NCBI RefSeq assembly: GCF_032854445.1
Contig: NC_088295.1
Span: 18,463,385 to 18,527,384, forward strand
Direction of reading: 5' to 3'
Source: Liolophura sinensis
Lineage: Eukaryota; Mollusca; Polyplacophora; Chitonida; Chitonidae
Length of the DNA stretch: 64,000 bases
Part shown: positions 53 through 48,200 of the stretch, in pieces
How the letters are laid out: each line of letters begins with the position of its first letter
Numbering within the stretch: the stretch's first letter is position 1
The notes under the pieces: generated by a model
The model's input: the letters and a program-made list of their open reading frames with translations, nothing else
Told to the model about the DNA's origin: nothing
The model's database searches: none
Program-made: the position numbers and the translations under genes

Positions 53-632
53 CGGCTTAAGTAACAAAATATCGAATTACTTTTGACTTTTGTAAAATAC
101 ATGTTAATAACGAGAATTTTTGTGCTAGTGTAAGGTTAGTAAGAAGAGATGTGTTATGTGTATGTTAGAACAGACTGATACTTAAATCAGACGTAGCCTT
201 GGTGTAAATGTAATGGTATGAGCAAGGATCCGTCTGCTATAATGAGTGACCCGAATCCCTCTTATAGAGACAGCAGTTCAGACATCTAAGATACCTCTTA
301 TTGGTAGTCTGATCTTATTGGGATTCCCCTGATTGTCGGCATGAGCTGGGAAACTTCACACTGGGACATGACATGATACCTGTGATGCGGAATTTGGGGG
401 ATCCTTTGAATAGGGCAAGAGTTGGGATACTTCCTATTGGGGCATAAAGGGATCCTTTTTATTAGAGACACGAACTGAGATGCCTCTGGATTGGGACATG
501 TTGAAATCATTCTTACTGGGGGCAGAGGTTAGAATCGAGTTAGATAACTGGCAGCATGAGTTTTTCCAATTAGAGGCATGAGCTTGAGTACCACTGATGG
601 AGTTTGGACCCTTCAGACTTTGGATAAGAACA
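53..632. repeat. degenerate flank of the 85-bp minisatellite
   Basis: From about 230 onward the sequence contains decayed versions of the neighbouring array's words, such as GGGACATG, TGGGATAC and GAGTTGG, spaced irregularly at roughly 40 bases. It looks like the old eroded edge of the array rather than unique DNA. Positions 53-230 show nothing recognisable. Short open frames here are not credible genes. Confidence 0.5.
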
Positions 633-3625
633 GGTATCTCATGTTATGGGGATGTAAAGTGGGATACCACTGTTTGGGGGACAGGAGTTTGAACCCTTCC
701 CACCGAGGATATGAGTTAGTATCTCATGTTATGGGGATGTAAGGTAGGATACCTCTGTTTGGGGGACAGGAGTTCGAACCCTTCCCACTGAGGATATGAG
801 TTAGTATCTCATGTTTTGGAGATGTAAGGTGGGAAACCACTGTTTGGGGGACAGGAGTTTGAACCCTTCCCACTGAGGATATGAGTTAGTATCTCATGTT
901 ATGGGGATGTAAGGTGGGAAACCACTGTTTGGGGGACAGGAGTTTGAACCCTTCCCACTGAGGATATGAGTTAGTATCTCATGTTATGGGGATATAAGGT
1001 AGGATACCACTGACTGGGGGACAGGAATTTGAACCCTTCCCACTGAGGATATGAGTTAGTATCTCATTTTTTGGGGATGTAAGGTAGGATACCACTGACT
1101 GGGTTACAGGAGTTTGGACCCTTCAGACTGAGGATAAGAGTTGGTATATCATGTTATGGGGATGTAAGGTAGGATACCACTGTTTGAGGGACAGGAATTT
1201 GGACTCTTCCCACCGAGGATATGAGTTAGTATCTCATGTTATGGGGATGTAAGGTAGGATACCACTGTTTGGGGGACAGGAGTTTGAACCCTTCCCACTG
1301 AGGATATGAGTTGGTATATCATGTTATGGGGGTATAAGGTGGGATACAACTGACTGGGGACAGGAGTTTGGACCCTTCCCACTGAGGATATGAGTTAGTA
1401 TCTCATGTTATGGGGATGTAAGGTAGGATACCACTGTTTGAGGGACAGGAGTTTGAACCCTTCCCACCGAGGATATGAGTTAGTATCTCATGTTATGGGG
1501 ATGTAAGGTAGGATACCTCTGTTTGGGGGACAGGAGTTCGAACCCTTCCCACTGAGGATATGAGTTAGTATCTCATGTTTTGGGGATGTAAGGTAGGATA
1601 CCACTGTTTGAGGAACAGGAGTTTGAACCCTTCCCACTGAGGATATGAGTTAGTATCTCATGTTATGGGGATGTAAGGTAGGATACCTCTGTTTGGGGGA
1701 CAGGAGTTTGAACCCTTCCCACTGAGGATATAAGATAGTATCTCATGTTATGGGGATGTAAGGTAGGATACCACTGTTTGAGGAACAGGAGTTTGAACCC
1801 TTGCCACTGAGGATATGAGTTAGTATCTCATGTTATGGGGATGTAAGGTAGGATACCACTGTTTGAGGGACAAGAATTTGGACTCTTCCCACCGAGGATA
1901 TGAGTTAATATCTCATGTTATGGGGATGTAAGGTAGGATACCACTGTTTGGGGGACAGGAGTTTGAACCCTTCCCACTGAGGATATGAGTTGGTATATCA
2001 TGTTATGGGGGTATAAGGTGAGATACAACTGACTGGGGACAGGAGTTTGGACCCTTCCCACTGAGGATATGAGTTAGTATCTCATGTTATGGGGATGTAA
2101 GGTAGGATACCACTGTTTGAGGGACAGGAGTTCGAACCCTTCCCACTGAGGATATGAGTTAGTATATCATGTTATGGGGATGTAAGGTGAGAAACCACTG
2201 TTTGGGGGACAGGAGTTTGAACCCTTCCCACTGAGGATATGAGTTAGTATCTCATGTTATGGGGATGTAAGGTAGGATACCTCTGTTTGGGGGACAGGAG
2301 TTCGAACCCTTCCCACTGAGGATATGAGTTAGTATCTCATGTTTTGGGGATGTAAGGTAGGATACCACTGTTTGAGGAACAGGAGTTTGAACCCTTCCCA
2401 CTGAGGATATGGGTTAGTATCTCATGTTATGGGGATGTAAGGTAGGATACCTCTGTTTGGGGGACAGGAGTTTGAACCCTTCCCACTGAGGATATAAGAT
2501 AGTATCTCATGTTATGGGGATGTAAGGTAGGATACCACTGTTTGAGGAACAGGAGTTTGAACCCTTCCCACTGAGGATATGAGTTAGTATCTCATGTTTT
2601 GGGGATGTAAGGTAGGATACCTCTGTTTGGGGGACAGGAGTTTGAACCCTTCCGGCTGAGGATATAAGATAGTATCTCATGTTATGGGGATGTAAGGTAG
2701 GATACCACTGACTGGGGGACAGGAGTTTGGACCCTTCCCACCGAGGATATGAGTTAGTATCTCATGTTATGGGGATGTAAGGTAGGATACCACTGTTTGA
2801 GGGACAGGAATTTGGACTCTTCCCACCGAGGATATGAGTTAGTATCTCATGTTATGGGGATGTAAGGTAGGATACCACTGTTTGGGGGACAGGAGTTTGA
2901 ACCCTCCCCACTGAGGATATGAGTTGGTATATCATGTTATGGGGGTATAAGGTGGGATACAACTGACTGGGGACAGGAGTTTGGACCCTTCCCACTGAGG
3001 ATATGAGTTAGTATCTCATGTTATGGGGATGTAAGGTAGGATACCACTGTTTGAGGGACAGGAGTTTGAACCCTTCCCACTGAGGATATGAGTTGGTATC
3101 TCATGTTATGGGGGTATAAGGTGGGATACAACTGACTGGGGACAGGGGTTTGGACCCTTCCGACTGAGGATATGAGTTATGGGGATGTAAGGTAGGATGC
3201 CACTGACTGGGGGACAGGAGTTTGGACCCTTCCCACTGAGTATATGAGTTGGTATCTTATGTTATGGGGATATAAGGTAGGATACCACTGTTTGAGGGAC
3301 AGGAGTTCGAACCCTTCCCACTGAGGATATGAGTTAGTATCTCATGTTATGTGGATGTAAGGTAGGATACCACTGTTTGGGGGACAGGAGTTTGAATCCT
3401 TCCCACTGAGGATATGAGTTAGTATCTCATGTTATGGGGATGTAAGGTAGGATGCCACTGACTGGGGACAGGAGTTTGGACCCTTCCGACTGAGGATATG
3501 AGTTGGTATATCATGTTATGGGGGTATAAGGTGGGATACAACTGACTGGGGACAGGATTTTAGAACCTTCCGACTGAGGATATGAGTTGGTATATCATGT
3601 TATGGGGGTATAAGGTGGGATACCT
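633..3625. repeat. 85-bp minisatellite array, about 35 copies
   Basis: A tandem array has a unit of about 85 bases containing GGATATGAGTTAGTATCTCA, then ATGGGGATGTAAGGTAGGAT, then GGGACAGGAGTTTGAACCCT and TCCCACTGA. Copies differ by scattered substitutions, and some units are shortened (around 3160-3190). Variant units recur at multiples of the period, for example the GGAATTTGGACTCTTCCC variant near 1195, 1870 and 2797. This indicates block duplication by unequal exchange. By position it should lie in intron 1 of the SLC5A7 gene or just beyond it. No coding capacity is evident. Confidence 0.93.
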
Positions 3626-6457
3626 CTGTTGAGCGCAGATCCTTTTTAATTTGGGAGTGGGAAATGTTAAGCATCACTCTTAGTATGAGTTCTAAATGGT
3701 AGTTCTAGGCTTCAAAACAGATATACGTTTACCAAATGTCAACCAAAGTCGACGTTCCGACTCAATAATGGCAAGACCAATTCCCTAACATAACCACCAA
3801 AAGCTAAGAAAGAAACATAAAGTAATAAATCAGGACGGATTCCTGTTAAATCAGGACGTATTCATACTAAATCAGGACGGATTCATGCAAGAAACAACAA
3901 CGGTTTTCAGTGATATGAAAAAAGACAAGGAATGTTCTAGGCGAGTGAATGAAATCAGTATCTAAATGGTGTACCATGCTAGTTGATAAATGGGCGCTAA
4001 TCAAAACTTATATATCAGTTGCGCTTAAAATGCGCCTTTTCATAGAACTAACTTAACGGCCAAATTCAACATGACGATTACGGCCCCTATTCAAGGGTTA
4101 AGTGGGAGAGTTATACTCATTATAAAACTTTAAAAGGTTAGAGTAAAGGAGTTTGATGGAACATTCTTGACACACCAGTTTTTGCAGTAATAACTGTTGG
4201 CGTTGTTTGAAGTCGTCATTTTACACTGAAAAATCTAGCAAATGCTACAAGGCGAGATATGTATACTCCAAATGCAGAACCGTTGGGTATACTATCCAAA
4301 CAGGATAATGTACAATGTCAAAATTGAAACTATTCCGAAGAAACAGTTTTAGTCTTTGGTGCGCCTTCTGAAGAGTCCTTAATTTTCACTAAACCCAGCA
4401 AATGTGGATGGATATATGGGGTGAATGGGTTTTTTATAGCTAGTAGATCTTCAATTTACCGTTTAGTGAATGAGAACGATCGAGTCTGACGAAGATTACT
4501 CTTAATAATTTCTGTATATTGTCCCATTCATTTGTGGCCTGGGGTCCTAGATGGCGGAAAGAGTTGCAGTTTCATGCACCAGGTGCCACGAGATGGGATC
4601 CTTCCAGCATGGGACTATATATTGGGAGCATGAGCTGGGATTTTTGCAACTGGGAAGGCTGCGTTTTTAAACCAAAATCAAAACAGAGAAATTTAAAGCC
4701 ACCTTTACCTATTCTTCATCCATACTGTGACTAATTCAATTTCCGAACAGACTTGCTTGAAAAAAAATATTTTCCTTATCACTCATCGTATTTCTTGAAG
4801 GGTGAAAAATCTCCGTTACTAAAATATACATTCCTGGCCAGCTTTGATTTGTTCATTTGTCTGCAGAGATATGAATGAATGGGTGCGACAAAAAGCAGCT
4901 AATGCAGATATGGCAAATACGTATTCCACAGCGAGTTGCTGGCGAAAGGCGGTTTTGCCAAGTCCTTGGGGAGCAGCAACACCTCAATTATGCCTTCATT
5001 GAGAGACATGTCTCGGGGGAAGCATTTCTCTACGATTGGCTACATTAGGCTTGCCATGTTCGATTCGCTTCAGCCAGCCATTGATCAGCGAGCTATAGCT
5101 GGCTTAGCGTGAGGCCACGGCGCGCTCGCCTGCTTCCGTCCCCTGGTCTTGGCCGTGCTTTAGCCTGACAATTACCAGCATCGCAACACTAATGTCCCTC
5201 ATTATGGTCTCCTGGCTTCCCCAACGCTTAGACATGTTACATAGACTTGACGGGAAATTCGATCAGGTCAGATCAGGCGGGGAAAAAGCAACATGTATTC
5301 ACTCTGCAAAAGGCCTGCAAATAGCCGTAAAGATAATTTTCTCACTCGATGCTGTGTTTTTTTTTCTTTACTACACATTGATAGAGAGAATTAATTTTTT
5401 TTAAGTTTGTCAACGTAGAAACTATTTACACTAACCATTGACTGATCAACACGGCTTGGTACCCCACACTAACTCTTCACTGGACAGCTCAGTGAGACAT
5501 TCGTGAGTGACCACTGGACATCCGATCGCACTCTAATACAGCTTTTAACTTGGAGAGTCTCAGCAGCATCTGTTCATTTCTCAACAAGCTGTTATGACCA
5601 ACTCGATGGGGCGAACTAGGGACAAGGTTTGCCCTACAACATCCAGCTAATATATCAAGCATATTATCTTTTAATTCATTACCTTTCGAGAACATTCAAA
5701 GTATTATATTATAACAGTCATTCTGAGCAATAATGGGAGCAAATACGCTCAATGTTTTTCACATTCTAATCAAGTTTATTAATTTCCTTCGTTGAACAGA
5801 GAGCTTTCAAGCGTATATGGGATTACGTGTGACTTCCTGTTTGGCTAGGCATTTCATAACCACTATATCTGGGAGAAGCCCAGTGAGCCGAGAATCTGGC
5901 GTAGGTGCAAGGCATTCCTTGAAGCCTTTATCGGAAAATATTTAATGAAGCTGTACCCCATCAATTAATCATTCTTTCTTCTGAACACAATGTCCCATTT
6001 GTGGTTAAGGGAGAAAAACCGCCTTGATATGATTTGTAAGAGAGACTGTATCTATAATGAAAACATTCAGGCAAACAAATTGATTCGGAAATTTTGTTCT
6101 GGGTTTCCTGTGATAAATAATCATTTGTTTTGTGGTTTGTGTAACAGCCAACCTCGGCTGCAGCATAGGCATGTTTATGATTGTGAATCTGAATACCGAG
6201 AGATGAATTGTATACAACAGAAAACTGTGCGCAAAAAATGATGCAAAATCTCATGGGAATGGGATAGGATAGGATAGGCTAGAAAAAGCGATTACATGGT
6301 TGCACGCATCAATCAATACACTGGTCAGTAAAACTAACATAATTATAGAATACAAAGATTTTCTGTAAGAGTCTCCAGGGCCTGTAACTGTGCTACATAA
6401 CTATTTAGCACTGCTTACACATTTAGGTATCGAAAATACCAATGAGATATTACGACC
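3626..6457. other. gene-free stretch, mostly unique AT-rich DNA
   Basis: No convincing exon was found on either strand. A 21-base motif (TAAATCAGGACGGATTC core) is repeated three times at 3825-3888. Around 4510-4680 there is a patch with decayed words of the 85-bp array (GGGATCCTTCCAGCATGGGA, GAGCATGAGCTGGGATTTTT). A GC-richer segment at about 4920-5165 stands out from its surroundings and might be a decayed transposon, but it carries stops in every frame. Open frames at 5961-6254 overlap on both strands and show no recognisable domain. Confidence 0.5.
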
Positions 6458-6690
6458 AACACACCTGAGAACACGATATTCGGAAACAGAGTGCGGGTGT
6501 AGCACAAACAGGGTCTTGTGTGCAGGAAAAACAAATGGAGTTTTGTCTGACCAACAGACCTGAGAACACGATATTCTAAAATATCTGTATGCAGGGTTTT
6601 ATAGTGTGCAGGAAAAACAAACAGGGTTTGTGTGTAGGAAAAACAAACAGGGTTTGTGTGTAGGAAAAACAAACAGGGTTTTGTGTGTCT
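6458..6690. repeat. short tandem repeats, 26-bp unit and a 93-bp duplication
   Basis: The phrase CTGAGAACACGATATTC occurs near 6466 and again near 6560, which marks an approximately 93-base duplication. From about 6600 the unit GGAAAAACAAACAGGGTTTG plus TGTGTA repeats three to four times with a 26-base period. Minus-strand open frames here are only translations of the repeat. Confidence 0.8.
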
Positions 6691-6777
6691 TGTCTCATAT
6701 TTCCAAATATGAGAACACCATTAAAATCAGCCAAACGTTCAAACTGAGGTTGTGGACGCCCCGATGGTGAGGATGGC

Positions 6778-7460
6778 GTTATGAACCACACTCACCTGTC
6801 ATCGTGAACACTCCGACCATCATCCCGATGGTGAGGATGGCGTTATGAACCACACTCACCTGTCATCGTGATTACATCGACCATCAGCCTGATGTTGAAG
6901 ATGGCGTTATGAACCACACTCACCTGTCATTGTGAACACTCCGACCATCATCCCGATGGTGAGGATGGCTTTATAAACAACACTCACCTGTCATCGTGAA
7001 CACTCCGACCATCAGCCCGATGTTGAGGATGGCTTTATGAACCACACTCATCTGTCATCGTGATTACACCGACCATCAGCCCGATGTTGAGGATGGCGTT
7101 ATGAACCACATTCACCTGTCATCGTGAACACTCCGACCATCAGCCCGATGGTGAGGACGGCTTTATGAACCACACTCACCTTTCATCGTAAATACTCCCA
7201 CCACTTTTTCTGATGTCCAGAATGATGTTCTCAGCCACACTCACCTGTCATCGTGAACACTCCGACCATCAGCCCGATGTGGTGAGGACGGCGTTATGTA
7301 CCACACTCACCTGTCATCGTGATTACATCGACCATCATCTCGATGTTGAGGATGGCGTTATGAACCACACTCACCTGTCATCGTGATTACATCGACCATC
7401 ATCTCGATGTTGAGGATGGCGTTATGAACCACACTCACCTGTCATCGTGAACACTCCGAC
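6778..7460 (-). repeat. 64-bp minisatellite made of an SLC5A7 exon end plus its splice donor
   Basis: Eleven units begin (plus strand) near 6778, 6842, 6906, 6970, 7034, 7098, 7162, 7226, 7292, 7357 and 7421. On the minus strand each unit carries about 40 bases matching the last codons of the SLC5A7 exon (GTCGGAGTGTTCACGATGAC) followed by the donor AG|GTGAGTG and about 12 bases of intron. The rightmost unit is the genuine exon-intron boundary. The unit near 7034 has lost the donor GT (AGATGAG), and the one near 7226 has diverged in its exon part. In the genuine frame each typical unit meets TAA shortly after the donor. The array has evidently grown leftward into intron 1 from the exon edge. 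Confidence 0.9.
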
Positions 7461-7613
7461 CATCAGCCCGATGTTCCGGCCGGCTAGCATCACCTCCTCG
7501 CTGTCAGCATTCTTCTCGCTGCTCTTGGACTTCCTGGAAGCCCAGATACCAACAGCCAGGATGAGTAGGTAAAACACAACAATGGCGATGACGCCAGGCA
7601 CGTGCACTGTCAT
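7439..7613 (-). CDS. SLC5A7: High-affinity choline transporter 1 (CHT1), first coding exon
   Basis: This exon encodes the N terminus of the Na+/Cl- dependent choline transporter of cholinergic nerve terminals, which imports choline for acetylcholine synthesis. The 58 complete codons start with MTVHVPG. They contain the first membrane helix ([20 protein letters not shown]), a charged loop, and the family motif [13 protein letters not shown]. The protein end matches the known human exon, which closes after FTMT with one base of the next Ala codon. The donor is ACAG|GTGAGTGT (GT at 7438-7437), phase 1. A possible acceptor (CACACAG) at 7652-7654 would make 7614-7651 5' untranslated sequence after an upstream non-coding exon. 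The remaining exons were not found to the left and must lie outside the window. The exon's 3' end is the founder of the adjoining 64-bp array. The family assignment is firm; whether this copy is functional cannot be seen from one exon. Confidence 0.9.
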
Positions 7614-7744
7614 GGTGATTCCGTCTGCCTCTTGTCACTCAAACTCCAATTCTGTGTGAAACAACGTAGGCTTAATGAATACTATGTTATTTCAAGATAA
7701 TCAGTTGCACATAAAATATGAATTTTGCACCTCCAGTGACACAT

Positions 7745-7831
7745 AAATGCCTCACTATATATATATACATATATATGGTTCACATTTTTTTTAATTGAGT
7801 GAATATATATATGAATGAATATGAATATGAA

Positions 7832-7880
<49 letters not shown>
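7745..7880. repeat. AT-rich microsatellites
   Basis: Runs of (AT)n occur at 7757-7776 and 7834-7874, joined by GAATATGAAT-type words. They sit between the arms of a larger inverted repeat. Confidence 0.85.
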
Positions 7881-7882
<2 letters not shown>

Positions 7883-8026
7883 ATTCATATCTGCTAAGTC
7901 AAATTTCCCCTCAATTAAAAAAAATGTGAAACAACAAAAATTCATTTTGATGGTTCACATCACAGCTGCTATTCATATCTGCTAAGTCAAATTTCCCCCA
8001 ATTAAAAAAAATGTGAACCATCAAAA
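7776..8026. repeat. nested fold-back (MITE-like) elements
   Basis: TTTTGATGGTTCACAT at 7945-7960 is the exact reverse complement of ATGTGAACCATCAAAA at 8011-8026, making an 82-base hairpin-capable element with 16-base arms. A second copy of the arm, GGTTCACATTTTTTTTAATT at about 7777, pairs with the AATTAAAAAAAATGTGAA arm at about 7913. The sentence TTCATATCTGCTAAGTCAAA occurs at about 7883 and 7971. Together this looks like one element inserted in or duplicated with another. Confidence 0.75.
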
Positions 8027-11000
8027 AAGAACAATCGTTCGTGTTTTGGAAGAGAGGAAGAAGTGAGTTCACTTATCATCTGTATTAGCGGTGCATTAGT
8101 CTACAGAACCCTCACAAGGCTTGGGGTTTAATTAAACGTTAAGGCAAACCATACCAAGCTGCTATTGTTCTTTATTTATTCTATTTGCGGACTGTGTAAA
8201 CAGCTAACAAAGTTGCGATGATGTGGCGGCGGGCTGGTCGTTTCCACGGCCTTAACTTCATTTGGAGCTGAAGTTTTCCTGTTATCCCTACAAACCAGCA
8301 TTCCAATCACCGAGATTAAATTTGCCGAGCCCGCCGAAGCACTGACAGTCCTTAATGTTGTAGAGTATAAATTTGCCCGACTATTGGGCCTGTACAGTGA
8401 CTGAGAGCGTCGGGCCGGGGATTGGGTAGAATAATTGGCGGGGTTTATCTGCTGAGAAGGCGTTATGAGCAGAGGTCTCCCTTTCAATCAGGAACAGCCT
8501 CCGTGGACAACATGTAAACACTTAAACAATCCACCTTAAATTAATTAGACGATACTTGGAAGTAAGAAAAAATAAACGTTAATCCTTAACTGTTGTGAAC
8601 AGCGCCACAACGTGACTGCTTAAAAAAGATTTTAACTGCGAAAGTAGGCATCATCAAACCGAGTAGACAGTAATTTCTTACGAAACAGATAGCAATGGTC
8701 GTTTCAACTATTTGCGTCATCTCGCCGTGACCTTCAGAGAGAGTTAGGTATACCTCATTACTGCTTATTATCCCGGTTAACTTTAAGCCAACTCTTTGAT
8801 CAGTGACCACTTATATTTAAATAACCCCAATCAGGAAGCGTGAAAAGTTTCATCAATCAATACATATCATTACTTAACAGAACCTTGACCTTTGATTGGA
8901 ACTCTGCTAGTGTGCTTCTGTCTCCCCCTGGGTAGCTGGACAGACGCAAGTTGCATGCTCTGTGAATGGAAGCGAACCACAATTGTGCATATCATAAACT
9001 GGCAAATTCACAGCCACGCACACTTTCGACCCACAGCATTAAACTATCACAGCTAAAAAAGAGGCAATTATTTGTTTGATTTCAAACATATAAAATATGT
9101 ATAATTCCAACACACAGACGAAAAGGTTCCTGCCTATAGGCCTGTCCATTGCCTTGATATATATATACTAAATTGGCACATATTATTTCATCAATTTTAT
9201 CAACACTACAGACGGTATATACATGCACAATCTATTTCCACGGTAAGACTTAAGCTGAATTTAGACGTTCTACAGGAATATAGCGAACTCTGACTGTTAC
9301 ACTCGAGCAATAACGTTGGGAATACCATCAGCGTTTGTACAGTTAAAAATATGCTTGTGGAAACAATCAGCGCGTTTACTGCTCTGTGATTGGCAATCAG
9401 TCACAGGGTTCGTTGAAACTGGTGTGACCAAATCGTGCGCACTGTAGCATTGGACCGATAGTTTAATTCTTCACTATACAAAGTATGTTTTGTCTGAAAG
9501 GTTCATCAGTGAGACTATTCTTGGATGTTAACCAAGATTGCCCCATATCAGACGTAACCAACATCCAGTTATAAAAGTGTACCATGAATATTTGATAAAC
9601 TTAGTAAAGCGGCTCACAGAGAGAAGGCACTAAAACACGCAAAGCTCAGGCAGAACATTGCACTGGGAACGTTTATCGACCTGTGTCACAGCATCCTCAG
9701 GGAATAGCCGGGTGTCCTTTCAAAGTTGACATATCTATTTTTTTTTTACAGTATGCTCCTTAGGCTACTCGCCTATAGAGGTATTCATATTTAGTGCCTC
9801 GGGTATCTCATACACAACTTATCTGGTATTTGTTTTCCGCCGCCTTACTTCAGTTAACTAAACGTACAGTAATTAAAATTGTCGTAATCCGAGATAGATT
9901 GTCGTGACAATATTTTCAAAAGAGAACGATTTCGTTGGCAAAGTACCATGCGAGTAAATATTTGTCAAATATTATTTTATGGTTGCGAACTCTTCAAGTT
10001 TAACGCCAAACGGCTCGTTATGTTTTACAAGAAAATAAAATGGCGGCGGTCACAACAATGTTGAGGGCCAGGATAAAATATTATTCACGTGTTGTACTTC
10101 GCTTCCATATTTTTAAGCGTATTAACCATTAAGCATAGCAATGCAATACATACAATTAAATTGGAAACGTTATTGAACTCCTGTATCAGTTACCAATAAA
10201 TTTTGCATTTTGTAATTTTAGTATACTACTTTTCAATATGTCTCACCAGGTTCTTATGAAATTCCCTTTATTCAATGAAGCAGGTCGTAGCTTAACTTTG
10301 AACATGTGACATTATTTCGTCTGTGCGAAAACATGATTTCGTCTCTTCAACAATTATATACACCTCGGATTTTAAAACTTTAAACTTTAATGGATTGTGC
10401 AGAACATAGAAGACTATCTTTGTTTACCTAGTTATTAGTAAAACAGTAGCAACGATCAGCTTGACTGGAATGAAACTTGATTTATATTTAAACCATAATC
10501 AATGGATTTGTAAACATGTTTTTGTGAGCGATAACAACGACGGTAAAGCTTTACTGTCATCCCATGTGCGTCACAGTATACTTAAAATACAAAAATAAAA
10601 GAATGTAACAACCTTTGTGAGACCATAAATCAGAAAAGACCACTTGAAGATTATCCAGGATATTTTTGAATCACCACTTCAAACCATTTCTTGCCGTCAT
10701 TACAGATAAAATGTATACAAGCCGTAAGCCTTTCTACGTCAAATTTTATTTCTGAGACCACGATCTACGTGGGTTGGATGTCCCATCAGTCGTTGTATGC
10801 CATGTATTATTCATTCTGTTTATCAGTTTATAGCAGAGAACATAATTTACCCAAAATAGCAAGAGAAGCCGAGTTAAGCAGGCTTGTCGCCTATCGTTAC
10901 CTATTCCCTGTATGTAATTGGCCTAGGTTATAAATCCTGTAGCTTCACCAGAATCAGTCTGTCAGGTGAAAATCTATCAGACAATATCTTGCCCTCATCA

Positions 11001-14727: not shown

Positions 14728-14739
14728 TATCAAGTCCTG

Positions 14740-17700
14740 TAATAAGCCATGTATGCAGTTCTCTGGTCACATTGTGCTGATCAGTCCTGTGATAAACCAG
14801 ATGTACAGCCCTTTGGTTACATGACCTGATCAGTCCTGTGATAAACCACATGTACAGCCCTCCGGTTACAGTGTCCGGATGAGTCCTGTGCTAAACAACA
14901 TGTACAGCTCTGGTCCCACTATCCTCACCAAATGTTCAGCTCTCTGGTCACATTGTGCTGATCAGTCCTATGATAAACCACATGTACAGCTCTCTGGTCA
15001 CATTGTGCTGATCTATCCTATGATCAACCACATGTGCACCTCTTTGGTCACACAGTCCTGATCAGTCCTATGATAAACCACATGTACAGCTCTCTGGTTA
15101 CATGACCCCATCAGTCCTTTGATAAACCACATGTACAGCTCTCTGGTCACATAACCTGATCAGTCCTGTGATAAACCACGCATATGCCTGCGTCTGGTCA
15201 CACTGTCCGGATCAGTCCTATCATCAACAACATGTACAGCTCTGGTCACATGACGTGATCAGTCCTATGATAAACCACATGTGCAGCTCTCTGATCACAT
15301 GACCTGATCAGTCCTATGATAAACCACATGTACAGCTCTCTGCTTACATGACCTCATCAGTCCATTGATAAACCTGCAGGGGCCTCCGTGGCTCTGGCCA
15401 CACTGTCCGCATCAGTCCTATGATAAACCACATGTACAGCTCTCCGGTCACATGAACTGATCAGTCCTGTGATAAACCACGCATATGCCTGCGTCTGGTC
15501 ACACTGTCCGGATCAGTCCTATCATCAACAACATATACAGCTCTGGTCACATGACGTGATCAGTCCTATGATAAACCACATGTGCAGCTCTCTGGTCACA
15601 TTGTGCTGATCAGTCCTATGATAAACCACATGTACAGCTCTCTGATCACATGACCTGATCAGTCCTATGATAAACCACATGTACAGCTCTCTGCTTACAT
15701 GACCTCATCAGTCCTTTGATAAACCTGCAGGGGCCTCCGTGGCTCTGGCCACACTGTCCGCATCAGTCCTGTGATAAACCACATGTACAGCTCTCCGGTC
15801 ACATGAACTGATCATGAATATGATAAACCACATGTACAGCTCTCTGGTCACATGACTTGATCATGAATATGATAAACCACATGTACACCTCTCTGGCCAC
15901 ACTGTCCGCATCAGCCCTGTGATAAACAACATGTACAGCTCTCTGGTCACACTGTCCGGATCAGTCCTGTAATAAACAACATGTACAGCTCTGGTCACAT
16001 GACCTGATCAGTCCTATGATAAACCACATGTAAAGCTTTGGTCACACTGTCCTCACCAATCCTGTTATAAACCAAGCGTACAGCTCTCTGGTCACATGAC
16101 CTAATCAGTTCTCTGATAAACCACATGGACAGTTTTCTGGTCACATGACCTGATCAGTCCTGTGATAAACCACATGTACAGCTCTGGTCACATGACCTGA
16201 TCAGTCCTGTGATAAACCACATGTACAGCTCTGGTCACATGACCTGATCAGTCCGATGATAAACCACATGTACAGCTCTCTGGTTACATGACCTGATCAG
16301 TCCTGTGATAAACCACATGTACAGCTCTGGTCACATGACCTGATCAGTCATATGATAAACCGCATGTACAGCTCTCTGGTCACATGACCTCATCAGTCCT
16401 ATGATAAACCACATGTACAGCTCTCTGGTCACATGACCTGATCAGTCCTGTGATAAACCACATGTACAGCTCTCTGGTCATATGACCTGATCAGTCCTAT
16501 GATAAACCACATGTACAACTCTTTGGTCACATGACCTGATCAGTCCTATGATAAACCACATGTACAACTCTCTGGTCACATGACCTGATCTGTCCTATGA
16601 TAAACCACATGTACAACTCTCTGGTCACTGCTGATCAGTCCTATGATTTTATCTATTTATTTGATTGGTGTTTTACACCGTACTCAAGAATATTTCACTT
16701 ATACGACGGTGGCCAGCATTATGGTGGGTGGAAACAGGGCACTGCCGGGGGAAACCCACGACCATCCGCAGACCTATGATAAACCACATGTACAGCTATC
16801 TGGTCACAAGACCTGATCATTCCTATGATAAACCAAATGTACAGCTATCTGGTCACATGACCTGATCAGTCCTATGATAAACCACATGTACAGCTCTGGT
16901 CACACTGTCCGGATCAGTCCTATAATAAACAACATGTACAGCTCTCTGGTCACAGTTTCCGAATTAGTCCTGTGAGAAACCACATGTACAGCTCTGGTCA
17001 CATGACCTGATCAGTCCTATTACAAACCACATGTACAGCTCTCTGGTCACATTGTGATGATCAGTCCTATGATAAACCACATGTACAGCTGCTGATGAAT
17101 CCTTTGATAAACCACATGTACAGCTCTGTGGTCACATGACCTAAACAGTCCTGTGATAAACCACATGTACAACTCTCTGGTCACGTTGTGCTGATCAGCC
17201 CTATGATAAACCACATGTAGAGCTCTGGTCACATGACCTGATCAGTCCTATGATAAACCACATGTACAGCTCTCTGGTCACATGACCTGATCACTCCTAT
17301 GATAAACCACATGTACAGCTCTCTGGTCACATGACCTGATCAGTCCTATGATAAACCACATGTACAGCTCTTTGATCACATGACCTGATCAGTCCTATGG
17401 TAAACCACATGTACAGCTTTGGTCACACTGTCCGGATCAGTCCTATAATAAACAACATGTACAACTCTCTGGTCACACTTTCCGAATTAGTCCTGTGGGA
17501 AACCCCATGTACAGTGGACACATGACCTGAACAGTCCTATGATCAACCACATGAACAACTCTCTGGTCACATTGTGCTGATCAGTCCTATGATAAACCAC
17601 ATGTTTATCTCTGGTCACATAACCTGAACAGTCCTATGATCAACCACATGTACAGCTCTCTGGTCACATTGTGCTGATCAGTCCTATGATAAACCACATG

Positions 17701-18838
17701 TTTATCTCTGGTCACATAACCTGATCAGTCCTGTGATAAACCACGCGTACAGCTCTGGTCACACTGTCCGGATCAGTCCTATCATCAACAACATGTACAG
17801 CTCTGGTCACATGACGTGATCAGTCCTATTATCAACCACATGTGCAGCTCTCTGGTCACATGACCTGATCCCTCCTATGATAAACCACATGTACAGCTCT
17901 CTGGTCACATGACCTGATCAGTCCTATGATAAACCACATGTACAGCTCTCTGGTCATATGACCTGATCAGTACTATGATAAACCACATGTACAGCTCTCT
18001 GGTCACATGACCTGATCACTCCTATGATGAACCACATGTACAGCTCTCTGGTCACATAACCTGATCAGTCCTGTGATAAACCACATGTACAGCTCTCTGG
18101 TTACATGATCTGATCAGTCCTGTGATAAACCACATGTACAGCCCTCCGGTTACAGTATCCGGATGAGTCCTGTAACCTGTACAGCTCTGGTCCCATAATC
18201 CTCACCAAATGTTCAGCTCTCTGGTCACATTGTGCTGATCAGCCCTGTGATAAACCACATGTAGAGCTCTGGTCACATGACCTGATCAGTCCTGTTATAA
18301 ACCACGCGTACATCTCTCTGGTCACATGACCTGATCAGTCCTGTGATAAAATACATGTACAACTCTCTGGCCACATGACCTGATCAGTCCTGTGATAAAC
18401 CACATGTACAGCTCCGATCACATGACTTGATCAGTCCTATGATAAGCCACATGTACAACTCTGGTCACATGACCGAATCAGTCGTATGATCAACCACATG
18501 TGCAGCTCTTTGGTCACACTGTCCTGATCAGTCCTATGATAAACCACATGTAGAACTCTCTGGTCACATGACCTGACCGGTCCTGTGATAAACCACATGT
18601 ACAACTCTCTGGTCACATTGTGCTGATCAGTCCTATGATAAACCACATGTACAACTCTCTGGTCACATGACCTGACCGGTCCTGTGATAAACCACATGTA
18701 CAGCTCTCTGGTCACATTGTGCTGATCAGTCCTATGATAAACCACATGTACAACTCTCTGGTCACATGACCTGACCGGTCCTGTGATAAACCACATGTAC
18801 AGCTCTCTGGTCACATTGTGCTGATCAGTCCTATGATA
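14740..18838. repeat. 49-bp satellite array, about 80 copies, with higher-order structure
   Basis: The basic unit of about 49 bases reads CTGATCAGTCCTATGATAAA then CCACATGTACAGCTCTCTGG then TCACATGAC. Variants replace CATGACCTGATC with CATTGTGCTGATC or CACTGTCCGGATC. At 18540-18830 two variants alternate to give a clean 98-base dimer repeated three times. At about 15140-15790 a multi-unit block (with CACGCATATGCCTGCGTCTG and TGCAGGGGCCTCCGTGGCTC markers) is repeated about 300 bases apart. Units have many ATGs and few stops on the minus strand, giving spurious open frames such as 18437-18814. A SINE-A copy interrupts the array at 16647-16771. Confidence 0.95.
16647..16771 (-). mobile_element. 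SINE-A copy inserted in the 49-bp satellite
   Basis: The 3' half of SINE-A (minus orientation) runs from the ATTTATTTGATTGGTGTTTT tail to CGACCATCCGCAG. The target word CCTATGAT flanks it on both sides (16640-16647 and 16773-16780). The copy is 5'-truncated, as expected for target-primed reverse transcription. The insertion postdates local array expansion because its unit is split and not propagated. Confidence 0.85.
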
Positions 18839-19720
18839 ATAAATCCTATCTGTATCCTATCTTATAAACCTGGTTTCCAAACCCTTTATGTATCCAGTCA
18901 GAGGTCACGTAAGCAGATCTTTAGTCATGTGGGTCTAAAGCTCATTGGTGACAGTCTCAAGAACGGTGAAAACTATACGTTCAAGGCTTAGCGACATTTT
19001 TTTACCAGTCTACTGGTTTATTTATAAACCAGATTGGTTAAAAGCCTGACATCATTGCATCCATAGACCACTGTAAAGGTGGTGCATTATCAGGTGCTGA
19101 GCAGTCCAGTATTACAGCCATTTGATCACCTGGCCAGGGACTGTAAAGTGACAGATCACTTTTAATCAAAGGTGTAACACTTTGGTCACATGGTCGGGAT
19201 CAGTCCCTGGTTGTCACGTGAAAACATTCACTTTCAGACTCGGAAACAGAATCATTAAACTTCCTGGCATCCAATTGTTTAAGTTCGAGTCGTCTTATAT
19301 GATGTTTGCTGGAGATCAATTGATTTCCAGCAATATGGCATACACATCACATGCTTAAAAGTTCGTGGGTCACTTCCCAAAGTGGAGTGATTTAATCCAG
19401 GCGGTCCATTGACCTGTACCTATAAATTTACAGCCTTACCGTGGAAACATTTATCAGCACGGCGTAAACTACAATTAAGTGAATAAATAAAAACTATACC
19501 TGGCCCCAAAGATGAATCCATTGCAAGCCCTTTGTTCCTTAACCCTTTAGTCCCGGTACAGATCAGGTGTAAAGATCTTTGGTAGTAATACCCTCATTAG
19601 TCCAGTGACACAGCATATGCTCTTTGATCACAAAAGCTGGATCAGTTAAGTAATAAAGCACGTGTACAGATTTTTGACTAGGCTGATCACATGGGTGTAT
19701 CGCCGGAATGATCATTCTGA
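18839..19720. repeat. eroded right flank of the 49-bp satellite
   Basis: Words of the satellite unit persist in decayed form, for example GGTCACATGGTCGGGATCAG near 19190 and TGATCACAAAAGCTGGATCA near 19625, at irregular spacing. This suggests that the array was once longer and that its edge has drifted out of homogenisation. Confidence 0.55.
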
Positions 19721-22728: not shown

Positions 22729-23694
22729 ATGCTCTGGTTTTACTCTCTCAGCTGTAAGTCTTTTATACCCATTCAGTTCGTCAAAACAGGACCGTGTGAC
22801 TACATTCCATACAGTTCGCACAAAGCATCCGGTGACTTTCTACAATTAACTTCTCTGAACATGATTATGTGCCTATACATGTGTCCACACATGAACAGAG
22901 GCAGGTATATACATCTCATCCACACAGTTCATCTACAAACAGAACCATGTGACAACATGTCCACACATCTCATCCACACAGTTCATCTACAAACAGAACC
23001 ATGTGACTACATGTCCACACATCTCATCCACACAGTTCATCTACAAACAGAACCATGTGACTACATGTCCACACATCTCATCCACACAGTTCATCTACAA
23101 ACAGAACCATGTCACTACATGTCCACACATCTTGTCCACACAGTTCATCCACAAACAGGATCTTGTGACTACATGTCCACACATGTCATCTACACAGTTC
23201 ACCTACAAACAGAACCATGTGACTACATGTCCACACATCTCATCCACACAGTTCACCTAAAAACAGAACCATGTGACTACATGTCCACACATCTCATCCA
23301 CGCAGTTTATCTACAAACAGAACCATGTGACTACATGTCCATACATCTCATCCACGCAGTTTATCTACAAACAGAACCATGCGACTACATGTCCACACAT
23401 CTCATCCACACAGCTCATCTACCAACAGAACCATGCGACTACATGTCCACACATCTTATTCACACAGCTCATCTACAAACAGAACCATGTGACTACATGT
23501 CCACACATGACATCCACACAGTTCATCTACAAACAGAACCATGTGACTACATGTCCACACATCTCATTCACACAGCTCATCTACAAACAGAACCATGTGA
23601 CTACATGTCCACACATCTCATCCAAACAGTTCATCTACAAACAGAACCATGTGACTACATGTCCACACATCTCATCCACACAGTTCATCTATAA
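22729..23694 (+). other. 321-codon open frame formed by a 54-bp repeat; doubtful gene
   Basis: An open frame runs from an ATG at 22729 through about 15 copies of the 54-base repeat, giving an 18-residue protein repeat (HLIHTVHLQTEPCDYMST). A second frame over the same DNA is also open for 22949-23260 and 23273-24064 (repeat TTCPHISSTQFIYKQNHV). Because 54 is divisible by three, any frame without a stop in the unit stays open through the array, so openness is weak evidence of coding. I see no convincing splice sites, signal peptide or family. A His/Cys-rich repetitive protein cannot be excluded, but a non-coding minisatellite is more likely. Confidence 0.3.
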
Positions 23695-23764
23695 ACAGAA
23701 CCATGTGACTACATGTCCACCCATCTCACCCACACAGTTCACTCACAAAACAGGACTATGTGAC
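22907..23764. repeat. 54-bp minisatellite, about 16 copies
   Basis: The unit is CATCCACACAGTTCATCTAC then AAACAGAACCATGTGACTAC then ATGTCCACACATCT. Copies are well conserved with point differences and essentially no length change, so frames are preserved throughout. The first and last units are degenerate. Confidence 0.95.
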
Positions 23765-24400
23765 TTTATTATGAGCAAAGCTTTGTGGATTCATTTCCAT
23801 ACAGTATGTAACACCATGGACATTGGTATTTTCCTAAATTTCCAAACAAACAACTTCATACACGAATCTCAATATGAGCCCAGTCATAAAATAGGCTCAC
23901 AACCCACATCGCCATACTTTTTACGTGCATCTTACAGTATTGGCTGTGCCTACCTTGAAATGCCGTACAACATACATCGTAAAGAGCCTGTGCCCGCATT
24001 TCCAAACAGTTTACGCAATAAACAAGGCCCTGGATTCCTCAATTTCCATGTAAGATGCACGTAAGAAGCATAATCAAACTTTTTCACACATTTTGCATAA
24101 CAAATAAGGTTTTGTGTCCAACTTTCCGTAGATCCTGCATTTTAAACTAATCTCCGTGCCCACCATTATATACATATGGTATAAAAAATAAGGCCCTGTT
24201 CTCATCTTTCCATACATCTTGCATCACGAACTACACTCTGTGTCCACCTTTTGATACATCTTGGGTCATGAACTAGATGCTGTAGCCAAATTTCCATACA
24301 TCTTTCATCATGAACCAGGTGTGATCACCTTTTCACACATCTTGCATCATGCGCAAAGATCTGTGTCTACTCTTTTAAGCTTTGAACAAGGTTCTGGACT
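23765..24400. repeat. degenerate continuation of the 54-bp array
   Basis: Decayed units remain recognisable as a period of about 50-60 bases with the words GTGTCCAC, CCATACATCTTGCAT and AACAAGG, for example near 24105, 24210, 24255 and 24330. The gradual decay away from 23764 mirrors what is seen at the edges of the other arrays. Confidence 0.6.
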
Positions 24401-30814: not shown

Positions 30815-30965
30815 ACTGTTCTCTGATAAGTTAGGCAAAATTCAAATGTTTACTCATCAGCTTTCAGAGAATGATGTCAATTATTTTGTCTGACATTCAT
30901 GGTTCAGTGTGCTTTTTTGGCCCAGCGGGATTCTAGGCTAAATTTGTTGCTAAAGTTATGCTAAT

Positions 30966-31325
30966 GTGAATGCCTTGCGCGAAGTGAACAATACTGAACC
31001 GTATTACTTGACTGACGCCGCAGATAAAACATTTTGCGATATTAAGTCTGTTATTGTTAACAGTCCAGGTCTCGCGTTGTTTCATCCAAACCGCGACGTT
31101 ATTGTTGTTACCACCGATGCTAGTGCGTATGGTATTGGTGGAGTCCTTTCTCAAATTGCTCCAGATGGATCCGAGGTTATGGTAGCTTGTGCATCGCGAA
31201 CAATCACTGCCGCAAAACGAAAGTACTCTGTGGGAGAACGCGAAGCCTTAGCCTGTGTATGGGCTATTGAAGTGGCACATGTATCTGCGGGAAAGACATT
31301 TTATTCTTCGAACAAATCACCATAA
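30966..31325 (+). pseudogene. Ty3/Gypsy reverse transcriptase-RNase H remnant
   Basis: A 119-codon open frame carries the Gypsy RNase H core: the connecting word SPGLALFHPNRDV, the TTDASAYGIGGVLSQ block with the first catalytic Asp, and SVGEREALACVWAI with the catalytic Glu. Upstream polymerase motifs (YxDD) are absent, and downstream the frame is lost where the rest of RNase H should continue. It is a broken copy and cannot move by itself. Confidence 0.85.
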
Positions 31326-44622: not shown

Positions 44623-45273
44623 CGCAGAGCGTTATGGGTAATAAATTCGCCTGGTCGATGTTGTAGCAGACGAATTCGTTTCTGATGTACATTAATTCAG
44701 TGATCTTTGTAGTTGCCCACTCTTCCGGGAACATTACAGCAATAAATTACACTTTCAATGTGATTATAAGCGATGGTATGTTGGGAATGTTTTTCCTTAC
44801 AAAGTGTCGCATTACAGAAGCCACTCACTGTCTCACTCCACTCATGTGAGTGTTACCACTCACAAAGTTCCCATGATTAAGGTAAACCCCTCTCACGTGT
44901 TATCCTTAGAAGAACGCGGAATGCAACCAAATTAATAGGGCAGTTAATGCCTTTTTTTATGACTTGGGTCTTTACTGCATCTATATTAGTCTCAGCTTTT
45001 TACAGTGGTAATGTTGCTTTTCCTTTTTATATATACTTGCAGCTGTTCTGCCTTTCTTACTTATTTACGTTGCAGGTGTTTGAAGAACATAATTTATGCA
45101 GTCTTAATTATTTATAATGTTAACTCATAGATAAAACAGCTACTGAAAAGCAGTACCTTTTGTTTTCAGGTTAACACGGCCATTTGATCTCAGATGACAA
45201 GATAGTTTGATAGCTCAAACTTTGACCTTTGTGCTAGTCATGTGACTTCACCAAGCCGTTCGACCATGTAAAG
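44623..45273. promoter_or_regulatory. head-to-head intergenic region between RPL18 and SPHK
   Basis: Only about 650 bases separate the RPL18 start (minus) from the SPHK start codon (plus), so the two genes probably share a bidirectional promoter or have abutting promoters. No CpG-rich core or further motif is evident beyond the RPL18 TOP/TATA-like words. A plus-strand AG acceptor for a separate 5' SPHK exon cannot be excluded. Confidence 0.55.
45266..45271 (+). promoter_or_regulatory. start-stop upstream ORF before SPHK
   Basis: The six bases ATGTAA form a start codon followed at once by a stop, two bases before the SPHK initiator at 45274. The context ACC before this ATG is good. If present in the mRNA, such a minimal uORF would stall or divert ribosomes and lower SPHK translation. 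Confidence 0.45.
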
Positions 45274-48200
45274 ATGGCTACACCCGGCCTGATGGACGTG
45301 GACGATCGGCAAGAGACGTTGTTGTGTGGAAATTTCTCTCTTTTCCCACGAAAAAAGCCTGAATTTCACGTGAGACTTTCGCAAAAAGCCATTTGGTTTC
45401 GTCCAACAGAAGCTGATAACAAGGATGATAAAATAATTTTTACTTCTGATGTGATCGGTTGTCAATGTCGCCAAGGAGCACAGGATGATAGCTCTGCATA
45501 TTTCACTGTCTATGCGTACCCTTTTCGAAAGAAACTGTTTTCTGGAAAGATGACAAGACAGAGACAGTCTATAACTTTTGATATCCATGATTTCGAAAGC
45601 TACGAGGAGAATCGGAAAGTGTCGGCAAAATGGCGCCGTGTTATCTTATCACTAGCGCAGGGAATTAAGGTGACAAAGAAGGTAAGGGAGGCTCAAACCG
45701 GACCAGTGGTCTGCCCGTCTGTACGTTAACAGCTGAACACAAATAACAGATCCTTACTCACCCATGACATGTACATGCATAAATAACTAAAGCCTCTAGT
45801 GAACTAACTCATGCCAGCCGAGTGTCAGTTAGGCTTTCATGTACAGGTAACATTGATGTAGTTCAGTTATATGTTCAGTTTTCTGATTTGTCTTCATTGT
45901 GTTAACCATGCTGGCATGCTTTCAAATCTAACATTAGACAGTCGATCAGATTTCTTCAGATGTGACAATTAAACATTGACACTTAATTGACTGTTGAAAA
46001 TTTGCTTCTATTTTTGTATTTTCTTGTTTGTTTTGAAAGTAACCACTGCCTACTTAGCAAGATCATATTTTTGCCCTGTTCATTTGCATAAACTGTTGAT
46101 ACAATATGATATTGCATCGCCAGGTGCACATTATGGGTCATTCATCAGGTGATACTGCACAGTGATTTGTGTTTCTGTAGGGATAAAATCCTGTGCTCCT
46201 GTGAGCCATGGGAAACTCAAGGTATTGGTGAACCCACACAGTGGTCCTGGCAAAGCCTTGCAGATTTTCCAGAAACAAGTTATACCCATGTTGGATGAGG
46301 CAGAGATAAAGTATGATTTAATTACAACAGGTGAGTTTGACAGGTCACAATCCAGGGAAAACATTTAGGATGCTAGCATAACGTCATTATGGTTTGATGC
46401 CTTACTCCAGAGCATTTTACATACGCAGTTAGACTCCAGTTTATGCCTAATTAAAGGAATCCGAGGAAGGTCATGCAAGCATATAGAAAAGATTTCCCTT
46501 TGCCAGTTAGATTTGTTTTCTTGTTTCCTTTAATGTTGTAAATTTGTGAACTTTAAGTTTGTCATTCATATTTACTATTTATTGTTCAGATTACAGAAAA
46601 TGAAGGTTATTACAGCTTCCATCCAGTGTTATGTAGGAGGTCCCGGGTTATAGCTAGGATTCTTTACATCTACTAGTTTTTGTAGCATTTATGCAAAACA
46701 TAAAGAATTGGTCAGCCTGTTCTCAGTATAAAGTAACTGTAACTTATCTCTTACAGCATACAGCAAGGTGACTTGCATTTGTGGCCACGTTTGATCTCTA
46801 ACAAAGAATTCCATGATCTCCTCTGGACCTTTAACTGTCTTCGGTGACAAGCTTTTGAGAGAGATCCAACATGGCCAAGAGTACAAGTCGACTATAAGGT
46901 CAGAAATCTTTGTACATGTCATGTTTGGGGAATCCAAAACAATATACTTGTATAACTAAAGACATGCAAACTGTGATTTGTAGTACATGTGCTATGATAT
47001 TTTAACAGAGTATGCTGGCCATGCCAAGGACCTGGTGGGGACCATGGATCTGTCTGAGTGCTATGCTGTAGTGATTGTGTCGGGAGATGGACTAGTGTAT
47101 GAGGTGAACCATGCTTCTTCAGATATTCTCATTATACTAGAAGCTTGTGCAAACATAACCTGGTTGAATGCCACATCAAAATTTACATTGATTTCACCAC
47201 CAGCAACATATTTCTAGGTTTGTATATGCCTTCAACTGCAACAAAAGGTTATTGGCTGATAAGGCATGGTGATATTAATTTACATGTACTTGATCATACC
47301 CTTACAATCATGAGGTGTACACCTCAGTGAGAGGTTATACATGAGATTATGTGGGGTGTATGCCTCATTTACACCTTAGTGTGAGGTATAGATGAGGTGT
47401 ATATCGGGTGTATGCCTCATGTACACCTTAGTGTGAGGTATAGATGAGGTGTACACCCCATCTATATTATCAGAGGTGTATAGGCCATATGCCTATACCT
47501 CAGAAATACCTCAGGAACTTTGAAAAAAATTAACATTTAGAAGATGTACCTCAGGTACACTTTAGAAACTAGAGTTTTTGAGCGGTTTTTTGAACATGAG
47601 ATTATGTGCTTCAAATGCACCTCAGCAAGTTTGAAAAAAAAAAATCAACACTTAGTAGATGTACCATAGGAACTTTGAAAGTTAAAAAAGGTAAATGATC
47701 TACCTCGGGCACACCTTACAGACTTTGAGAATTTTTGAATATAATTTAGCAGTCGTGTACCTAAAGTACACCTCAGCCACTTTTTTAAAGTTTTAAAACA
47801 AGAGATCAGATTTACATATATCTGATATATTTGCCCCTGATTATTCTTAGATGGCTGCCCTGAACAGGGTGCATACATATATTCCAGGCTGTGAGAGAGC
47901 AACCCAATTATGCACTGCTTGATGCTTCTTGGGACAGAATTTGTAACAAGTTTGAGCACATGAACAGTTCGTAATGGCATAGAAAAGGGATAGCATTAAA
48001 TTTTGATCAAGCAGCTAACAGGCCTCACCTAAATGTATATCACTGTTGTTGTTAGTCAGGTGAGATTTAGAGACACTGTAAACGAAGAATAGCATGCACT
48101 TACAAACATACTTAAATTTATTTATAATTTACACAGCCAATATTTAAGTGTTTTGAGCTTCTTTTGTAACAAAATAAGAGTTAAAACACACCTCTACAGG

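Follow-up and report, generated by a model that had tools for sequence, protein, structure and literature searches.

In Liolophura sinensis, a 64-bp minisatellite lies across the end of coding exon 1 of SLC5A7 (CHT1), and as judged from its sequence it is a molluscan instance of an already known kind, the mirage minisatellites of amphioxus. The array is probably of near-neutral, intronic character, with the first donor used and the decoy donors behind it silent. The features concerned are collected in Table 1, where positions refer to the 64,000-nucleotide stretch of DNA that was analyzed (the window).

The translated product of exon 1 (MTVHV...FTMT) matched PDB chain 8j74 (CHT1/SLC5A7) with an E-value of 7.4e-14 over query residues 1–58 and chain residues 1–59, in agreement with the gene identity given in the original prediction. 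We take this chain to be the human high-affinity choline transporter. Exon 2 was located by translation, the peptide there reading VGGAY. Its first base is C1:18461899, C1 being the contig that holds the window, and the boundary TTTTGCCTTCAG|CGACCTGG (intron 1 end/exon 2 start) is in phase with exon 1, so that intron 1 measures 8,923 nt. The gene was traced as far as exon 7; exons 2–7 (C1:18453.8–18461.9 kb) are all open and lie beyond the window. On the other side, an acceptor-like GTTTCACACAG was seen at window positions 7652–7653 (minus strand). Its exon would begin 38 nt upstream of the ATG, and coding exon 1 may be preceded by another exon.

Table 1. Features of the SLC5A7 array and its surroundings (positions in the window), followed by the exons recognized at other donor-motif arrays of the genome
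Feature	Position	Strand	Evidence
64-bp minisatellite, 11.1 copies; unit 0 is the real exon end	6760..7475	-	TRF and sequence
Ten decoy units	6769..7411	-	Sequence, unit alignment
AACATCGGG, exon-side 5' edge of unit 0	7467..7475	-	Sequence
ACCATCGGG, intron-side close of the array	6760..6768	-	Sequence
SLC5A7 (CHT1) first coding exon, 175 nt counted from the ATG; phase 1 at its 3' end	7439..7613	-	PDB match
Authentic donor GT, ACAG|GTGAGT	7437..7438	-	Phase matches exon 2 acceptor
TAA in the exon frame when the real donor is skipped, common to all decoys	7422..7424	-	Translation
26-bp tandem repeat, SLC5A7 intron 1	6604..6688	.	TRF
85-bp tandem repeat, SLC5A7 intron 1; 30.4 copies over 599–3179, on to 3630	599..3630	.	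TRF
SNF2/BTAF1-like exon at donor array			Pfam 6.9e-6
BMS1 exon at donor array			RIBIOP_C, 6.6e-11
OGDH exon at donor array			6e-21
ABCC2/MRP1 exon at donor array			1.6e-15
CUL1 exon at donor array			8.5e-14
RPC1 exon at donor array			3e-9
SPT3 exon at donor array			2.9e-7
Deoxyribose-phosphate aldolase exon at donor array			0.0027, weak
GH3-type xylosidase exon at donor array			0.00027, weak

Tandem Repeats Finder (TRF) treated the repeat in the window as a single array of period 64 with 85% matches and a score of 1020, its extent enclosing the minisatellite of about 11 copies that had been predicted at 6778–7460. Read on the minus strand, a typical unit opens with 37 nt from the end of the exon and closes with 27 nt of intron, which matches the predicted composition of exon 1 end, donor and a few intron bases. 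Donors are spaced 64–66 bp apart, and the mean pairwise identity among units is 86%. A genome search with the 64-bp unit returned at least 11 matches, every one at the SLC5A7 locus; match counts from such searches are lower bounds for repeats.

Besides the 85-bp repeat of intron 1, further long minisatellites occur in the window at 14733–18839 (49–50 bp) and 22911–23765 (54 bp). A lipid kinase-type gene at 45238–51008 (plus strand) has exons matching DAGK_cat (1.7e-5) and YegS_C (1.2e-10) and is presumably a sphingosine kinase. An exon with a GST_N_4 domain (4.4e-16) at 61591–61923 on the minus strand perhaps belongs to a failed-axon-connections homolog, and a retrotransposon fragment with an RNase H-like reverse transcriptase domain (3.6e-23) lies at 30954–31322 (plus strand).

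The two edges of the array, AACATCGGG and ACCATCGGG, agree at eight of nine positions and would have been separated by 64 bp in a single-copy ancestor. The initial duplication may have been primed by this near-repeat; alternatively, the near-repeat may be no more than an incomplete last copy. For the age of the array, three CHT paralogs were compared (the tandem copy, C12:30.676 Mb and C1:30.294 Mb; C1:19.561 Mb was left out). Exon 1 of the tandem paralog is 73% identical, ends at the same boundary and has one donor, ACAG|GTTAGT, with no array over it; a 35-bp repeat of 3.1 copies sits deeper in that intron. The paralogs at C12:30.676 Mb and C1:30.294 Mb likewise have no array at exon 1. Either the SLC5A7 array arose after those duplications, therefore, or the paralogs have lost it.

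The architecture is not peculiar to SLC5A7. Triple clusters, defined as three exact CAGGTRAGT motifs in a row at a spacing of 44–74 bp, numbered 1,228 genome-wide (538+690), as against 178+90 for the reversed motif, 191+76 for a second control and 176+146 for the reverse of that control (range 267–322). Single motifs were also more numerous, however, with 9,743+10,161 CAGGTRAGT against 3,839+3,746 for the control, and correction for the number of motif loci weakens the enrichment to a modest one. By hand count, the first 100 donor triples came from 26 arrays on C1 up to 75.3 Mb, compared with three and four arrays in the same stretch for the two control lists. When the first 100 single hits of each motif were grouped with gaps of at most 350 bp, arrays of at least three copies made up 7/56 donor loci and 3/83 control loci (one-sided p = 0.05); with at least two copies the figures were 8/56 and 8/83 (p = 0.28). 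Counted per independent locus, donor-motif arrays are in excess by about 1.5- to 3.5-fold, depending on the definition, and the difference is at best borderline significant.

An acceptor pattern, TTTYTNCAGRT, gave 171+89 triples versus 12+12 for its reverse, with half of the 100 listed triples coming from one array at C1:2.078–2.084 Mb and many of the remainder from one dispersed 53-bp repeat family. Most copies of this acceptor-like tandem repeat open with TTTCTGCAGG, and it is possibly part of a mobile element. Among the matches listed, its loci are at C1:16.8, 23.6, 37.1, 51.9, 71.8 and 78.3 Mb and on C3, C4 and C6.

For the 25 sampled donor arrays other than that of SLC5A7, the sequence was fetched and the reading frames upstream of the first unit were read. 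Including SLC5A7, 10/26 arrays start at or beside the donor of a recognizable coding exon, two of them on weak matches (Table 1). The names BTAF1 for the SNF2-type exon and GH3 for the xylosidase-type exon are our assumption, and the aldolase exon had no match in PDB. At eleven arrays no exon is evident; Pfam gave no match for peptides from two of these (L016 and L018), and for a third (L026) the BMS1-like exon lies on the other strand, at a distance of a few kb. The other five adjoin an open frame lacking a database match, in Pfam, PDB and NCBIfam for L020 and L027, and in Pfam and NCBIfam for L036 and for the exon common to L030 and L031. The latter two loci (C1:49.738 and 49.777 Mb) are inverted copies about 38 kb apart, each with a near-identical exon and a 26-bp donor array.

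The position of arrays relative to splice sites was assessed in the SLC5 family. Fifteen stretches were picked by exon density, blind to repeats: ten at the outset, and five more once the initial result had come in. L050 held the ends of two convergent genes and was dropped, leaving 14 stretches with about 12 genes. Ten reference peptides were used in tblastn to locate the exons, whose boundaries a script then set. Those at the ends of a stretch were left out, 96 were retained and three copies inside an array were removed; a few boundaries are doubtful (e.g. exon 8 of L049, apparently fused to exon 9). A splice site counted as covered when an array took in 5 nt on its exon side and 6 nt on its intron side, a window set in advance.

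The first run, on nine stretches, gave 8/71 donors and 3/71 acceptors covered by arrays; once the three in-array copies and exon 8 of L049 had been taken out manually, these became 5/67 and 0/67 (two-sided p = 0.058). Over the 14 stretches, arrays covered 7/96 donors versus 0/96 acceptors (two-sided p = 0.014 for a two-stage sample, uncorrected for stages), with exons of the same gene non-independent and the seven arrays coming from four of the roughly 12 genes. Looser windows gave eight donors and no acceptor at 4 nt, and nine donors (from five genes) and one acceptor at 3 nt. Eight of these nine donor arrays repeat the GT donor; the exception is exon 8 of L045, where the second copy reads CAG|CTGAGT. 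Farther into the intron the imbalance was 16/90 on the donor side versus 3/86 on the acceptor side at 150 bp, and 19/87 versus 13/84 at 600 bp.

Arrays make up 17.4% of the sequence outside recognized exons in the 14 stretches. Against this background, and even in the loosest window, donors were covered somewhat less often than expected (9/96, binomial p = 0.02) and acceptors far less often (p = 2e-7). Since donor coverage is below background, arrays are tolerated at donors and not concentrated there. It is tempting, though we would not yet wager on it, to generalize that many chiton introns, a sizeable fraction of the total (7/96 SLC5 donors in this sample), open with an exon-end/donor minisatellite while acceptors stay free of them, with a directional rule by which repeats past the first donor are ignored and repeats over the acceptor are not. 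If this were true, hundreds of genes would amount to natural experiments on how one donor is selected by the spliceosome when many identical ones are on offer.

One of the surveyed arrays, at positions 6605–7853 of stretch L044 (C13:20.910–20.912 Mb), has a 129-bp unit in 9.7 copies, which repeats the donor of an SLC5-family exon together with the last 76 nt of that exon. Its copies resemble the exon peptide closely enough to pass as exons.

At SLC5A7, ten units lie downstream of the authentic donor at 7438 and GT is intact in nine of them, as expected from the predicted row of about ten decoy 5' splice sites, nearly all with GT. Seven read CAG|GTGAGT (donor first base at 7374, 7310, 7244, 6987, 6923, 6859 and 6795, minus strand) and are the same as the real donor over nine bases; the deviants are AAG|GTGAGT at 7179, CAG|GTGAAT at 7115 and CAG|ATGAGT, with GT gone, at 7051. 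Predicted U1 pairing is –14.6 kcal/mol for the real donor and for each of the seven, and –12.6, –8.9 and –7.9 kcal/mol for the three deviants in the order given. Donor strength alone thus cannot favor the real site, and on these predictions any preference for it would have to come from position or exon context.

Equal pairing also speaks for a regulatory role, in which some transcripts would be spliced at decoys and undergo decay or encode a stub, and array length or the levels of splicing factors would set the output of transporter. Translation supports the truncation at about 63 residues that had been predicted: read-through from exon 1 stops after 63 codons for 10/10 decoys and, because the TAA precedes the first decoy donor, every decoy would give the identical 63-residue product. 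A single stop would therefore serve all decoys. The first decoy junction is 47 nt downstream of the TAA, so that by the 50–55 nt rule for nonsense-mediated decay the first decoy transcript might escape, whereas decay would be expected from the second decoy on. Nevertheless, such control by unproductive splicing is unlikely. Arrays built in this way are found at unrelated genes too, which speaks against a device specific to the transporter and deprives the predicted choline-transporter switch of its special status; moreover, normal splicing is reported for the amphioxus mirages in the accounts available (PMC3087553, PMC3902484).

Variation among the units was considered as a sign of selection on the decoys. 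The nine donor columns of the decoy units show 3 changes in 90 cells, and all eleven units together show 41 changes in 374 exon-like cells and 19 in 253 intron-like cells, counts that are inflated by the shared descent of the units. Lower variation around the decoy donors could hint at constraint. As evidence of selection it was set aside, because the units share ancestry and 15/58 contiguous nine-column windows are at least as invariant, a count that takes in the donor window itself and consists mostly of windows overlapping it.

A second functional reading treats the row of strong sites at the opening of an 8.9-kb intron as a platform that would recruit U1 and so guard against premature polyadenylation or boost transcription. 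Six AATAAA/ATTAAA signals are present in the 8,923-nt intron, at offsets from 1,492 to 8,893, and the seven exact CAGGTRAGT motifs of the array are the only ones past the real donor in intron 1. The predicted accessibility of the eleven donor 9-mers is low and unordered (0.0002–0.019), which argues against the platform and leaves it improbable. The same values led to rejection of RNA structure as a means of hiding the decoys, since the real donor is not singled out.

It is very doubtful that the array is an intermediate of intron or exon gain, its exon-end copies awaiting later recruitment as exons in the manner proposed for amphioxus globins in the model that PMC3087553 outlines: the 64–66 bp units have no pyrimidine-rich stretch ahead of ACAG, and the exon frame hits a stop within the first intron part. 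An assembly artefact is scarcely credible, error-prone though repeats are in assembly, because HiFi reads averaging 8,347 bp at 14×, as stated in PMC11068029, far exceed the 716-bp array and make its collapse or invention unlikely, and because units that differ by about 14% on average leave reads placeable. The assembly was first published as Liolophura japonica, the species being later corrected to L. sinensis (PMC12441733).

The favored reading is a near-neutral mirage-type minisatellite. One 64-bp duplication would have happened to take in the end of exon 1 with its donor, perhaps primed by the short near-repeat at the edges, and slippage or unequal exchange would have enlarged the array. 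All extra copies are downstream of the authentic donor and hence inside intron 1. We infer that the spliceosome stays with the first donor because it is the sole copy joined to the full exon; the decoys would then leave with the intron, making the array close to neutral and the copied exon ends most likely harmless. A repeat over the acceptor would leave the true exon start preceded by a spurious AG or an interrupted pyrimidine tract, and the donor/acceptor asymmetry, observed in one family, fits tolerance of extra downstream donors but not of acceptor repeats. By analogy, the amphioxus precedents, as far as their accounts go, suggest undisturbed splicing here too. The decoys need not stay silent, as classical studies of duplicated donors reportedly showed that the SR protein SF2 can activate intron-proximal donors.

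Choice among identical 5' splice sites has been studied mostly on artificial duplications. Chiton RNA-seq could show that choice at many loci, if the survey holds genome-wide. Gene annotation is affected as well, because copied exon ends may be taken for exons, and the arrays are relevant to models of intron gain.

Several known systems share part of this arrangement. Intron gain through tandem duplication of AG/GT proto-splice sites (Rogers; Gao and Lynch, as cited in PMC3087553) likewise involves a tandem-copied splice signal, but the chiton copies sit in an existing intron and no new intron arises. The C. elegans repeat CeRep25B, an intronic minisatellite tied to alternative splicing, resembles the chiton array in lying near splicing decisions; it is, however, a repeat family with regulatory motifs, and its abstract describes no copying of exon ends (PMC4039745). 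Exon-end copies are likewise absent from the available description of the intron-1 minisatellites of earthworm metallothionein, unlike the chiton array. Recursive splice sites have the same AG|GT juxtaposition as each chiton unit; recursive splicing was rejected because no pyrimidine tract is seen, by eye, ahead of the unit AG|GT. Among the matches listed in a search of open-access literature, neither arrays of this kind from a mollusc nor a genome-wide comparison of donor and acceptor arrays came up.

The closest counterparts, and the sole examples described in the papers available, are the mirages of amphioxus, described as minisatellites across exon–intron boundaries in Adh3, the globin genes BflGb6 and BflGb9, troponin C and PGBD5, with units of 10–160 bp, many of them carrying AG/GT decoys, unit identity of 81–100% in BflGb6 and splicing reported as undisturbed (PMC3087553, PMC3902484). 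Minisatellites of this origin had been predicted to be rarely described; if that meant unprecedented, these cases from Adh, globin, troponin C and PGBD5 contradict it. The SLC5A7 array has a tandem unit of minisatellite length (64 bp × 11.1) spanning an exon–intron boundary, its end unit is the authentic boundary, with donor 7438 in phase with exon 2, and GT decoys recur in 9/10 copies. In the reports available, amphioxus mirages copy donors and acceptors, whereas the chiton SLC5 sample has copied donors and no acceptor in the preset window. The hosts differ too, a mollusc in one case and a cephalochordate in the other, yet the chiton array and the mirages, as described, have in common tandem copies of an exon–intron boundary with AG/GT decoys.
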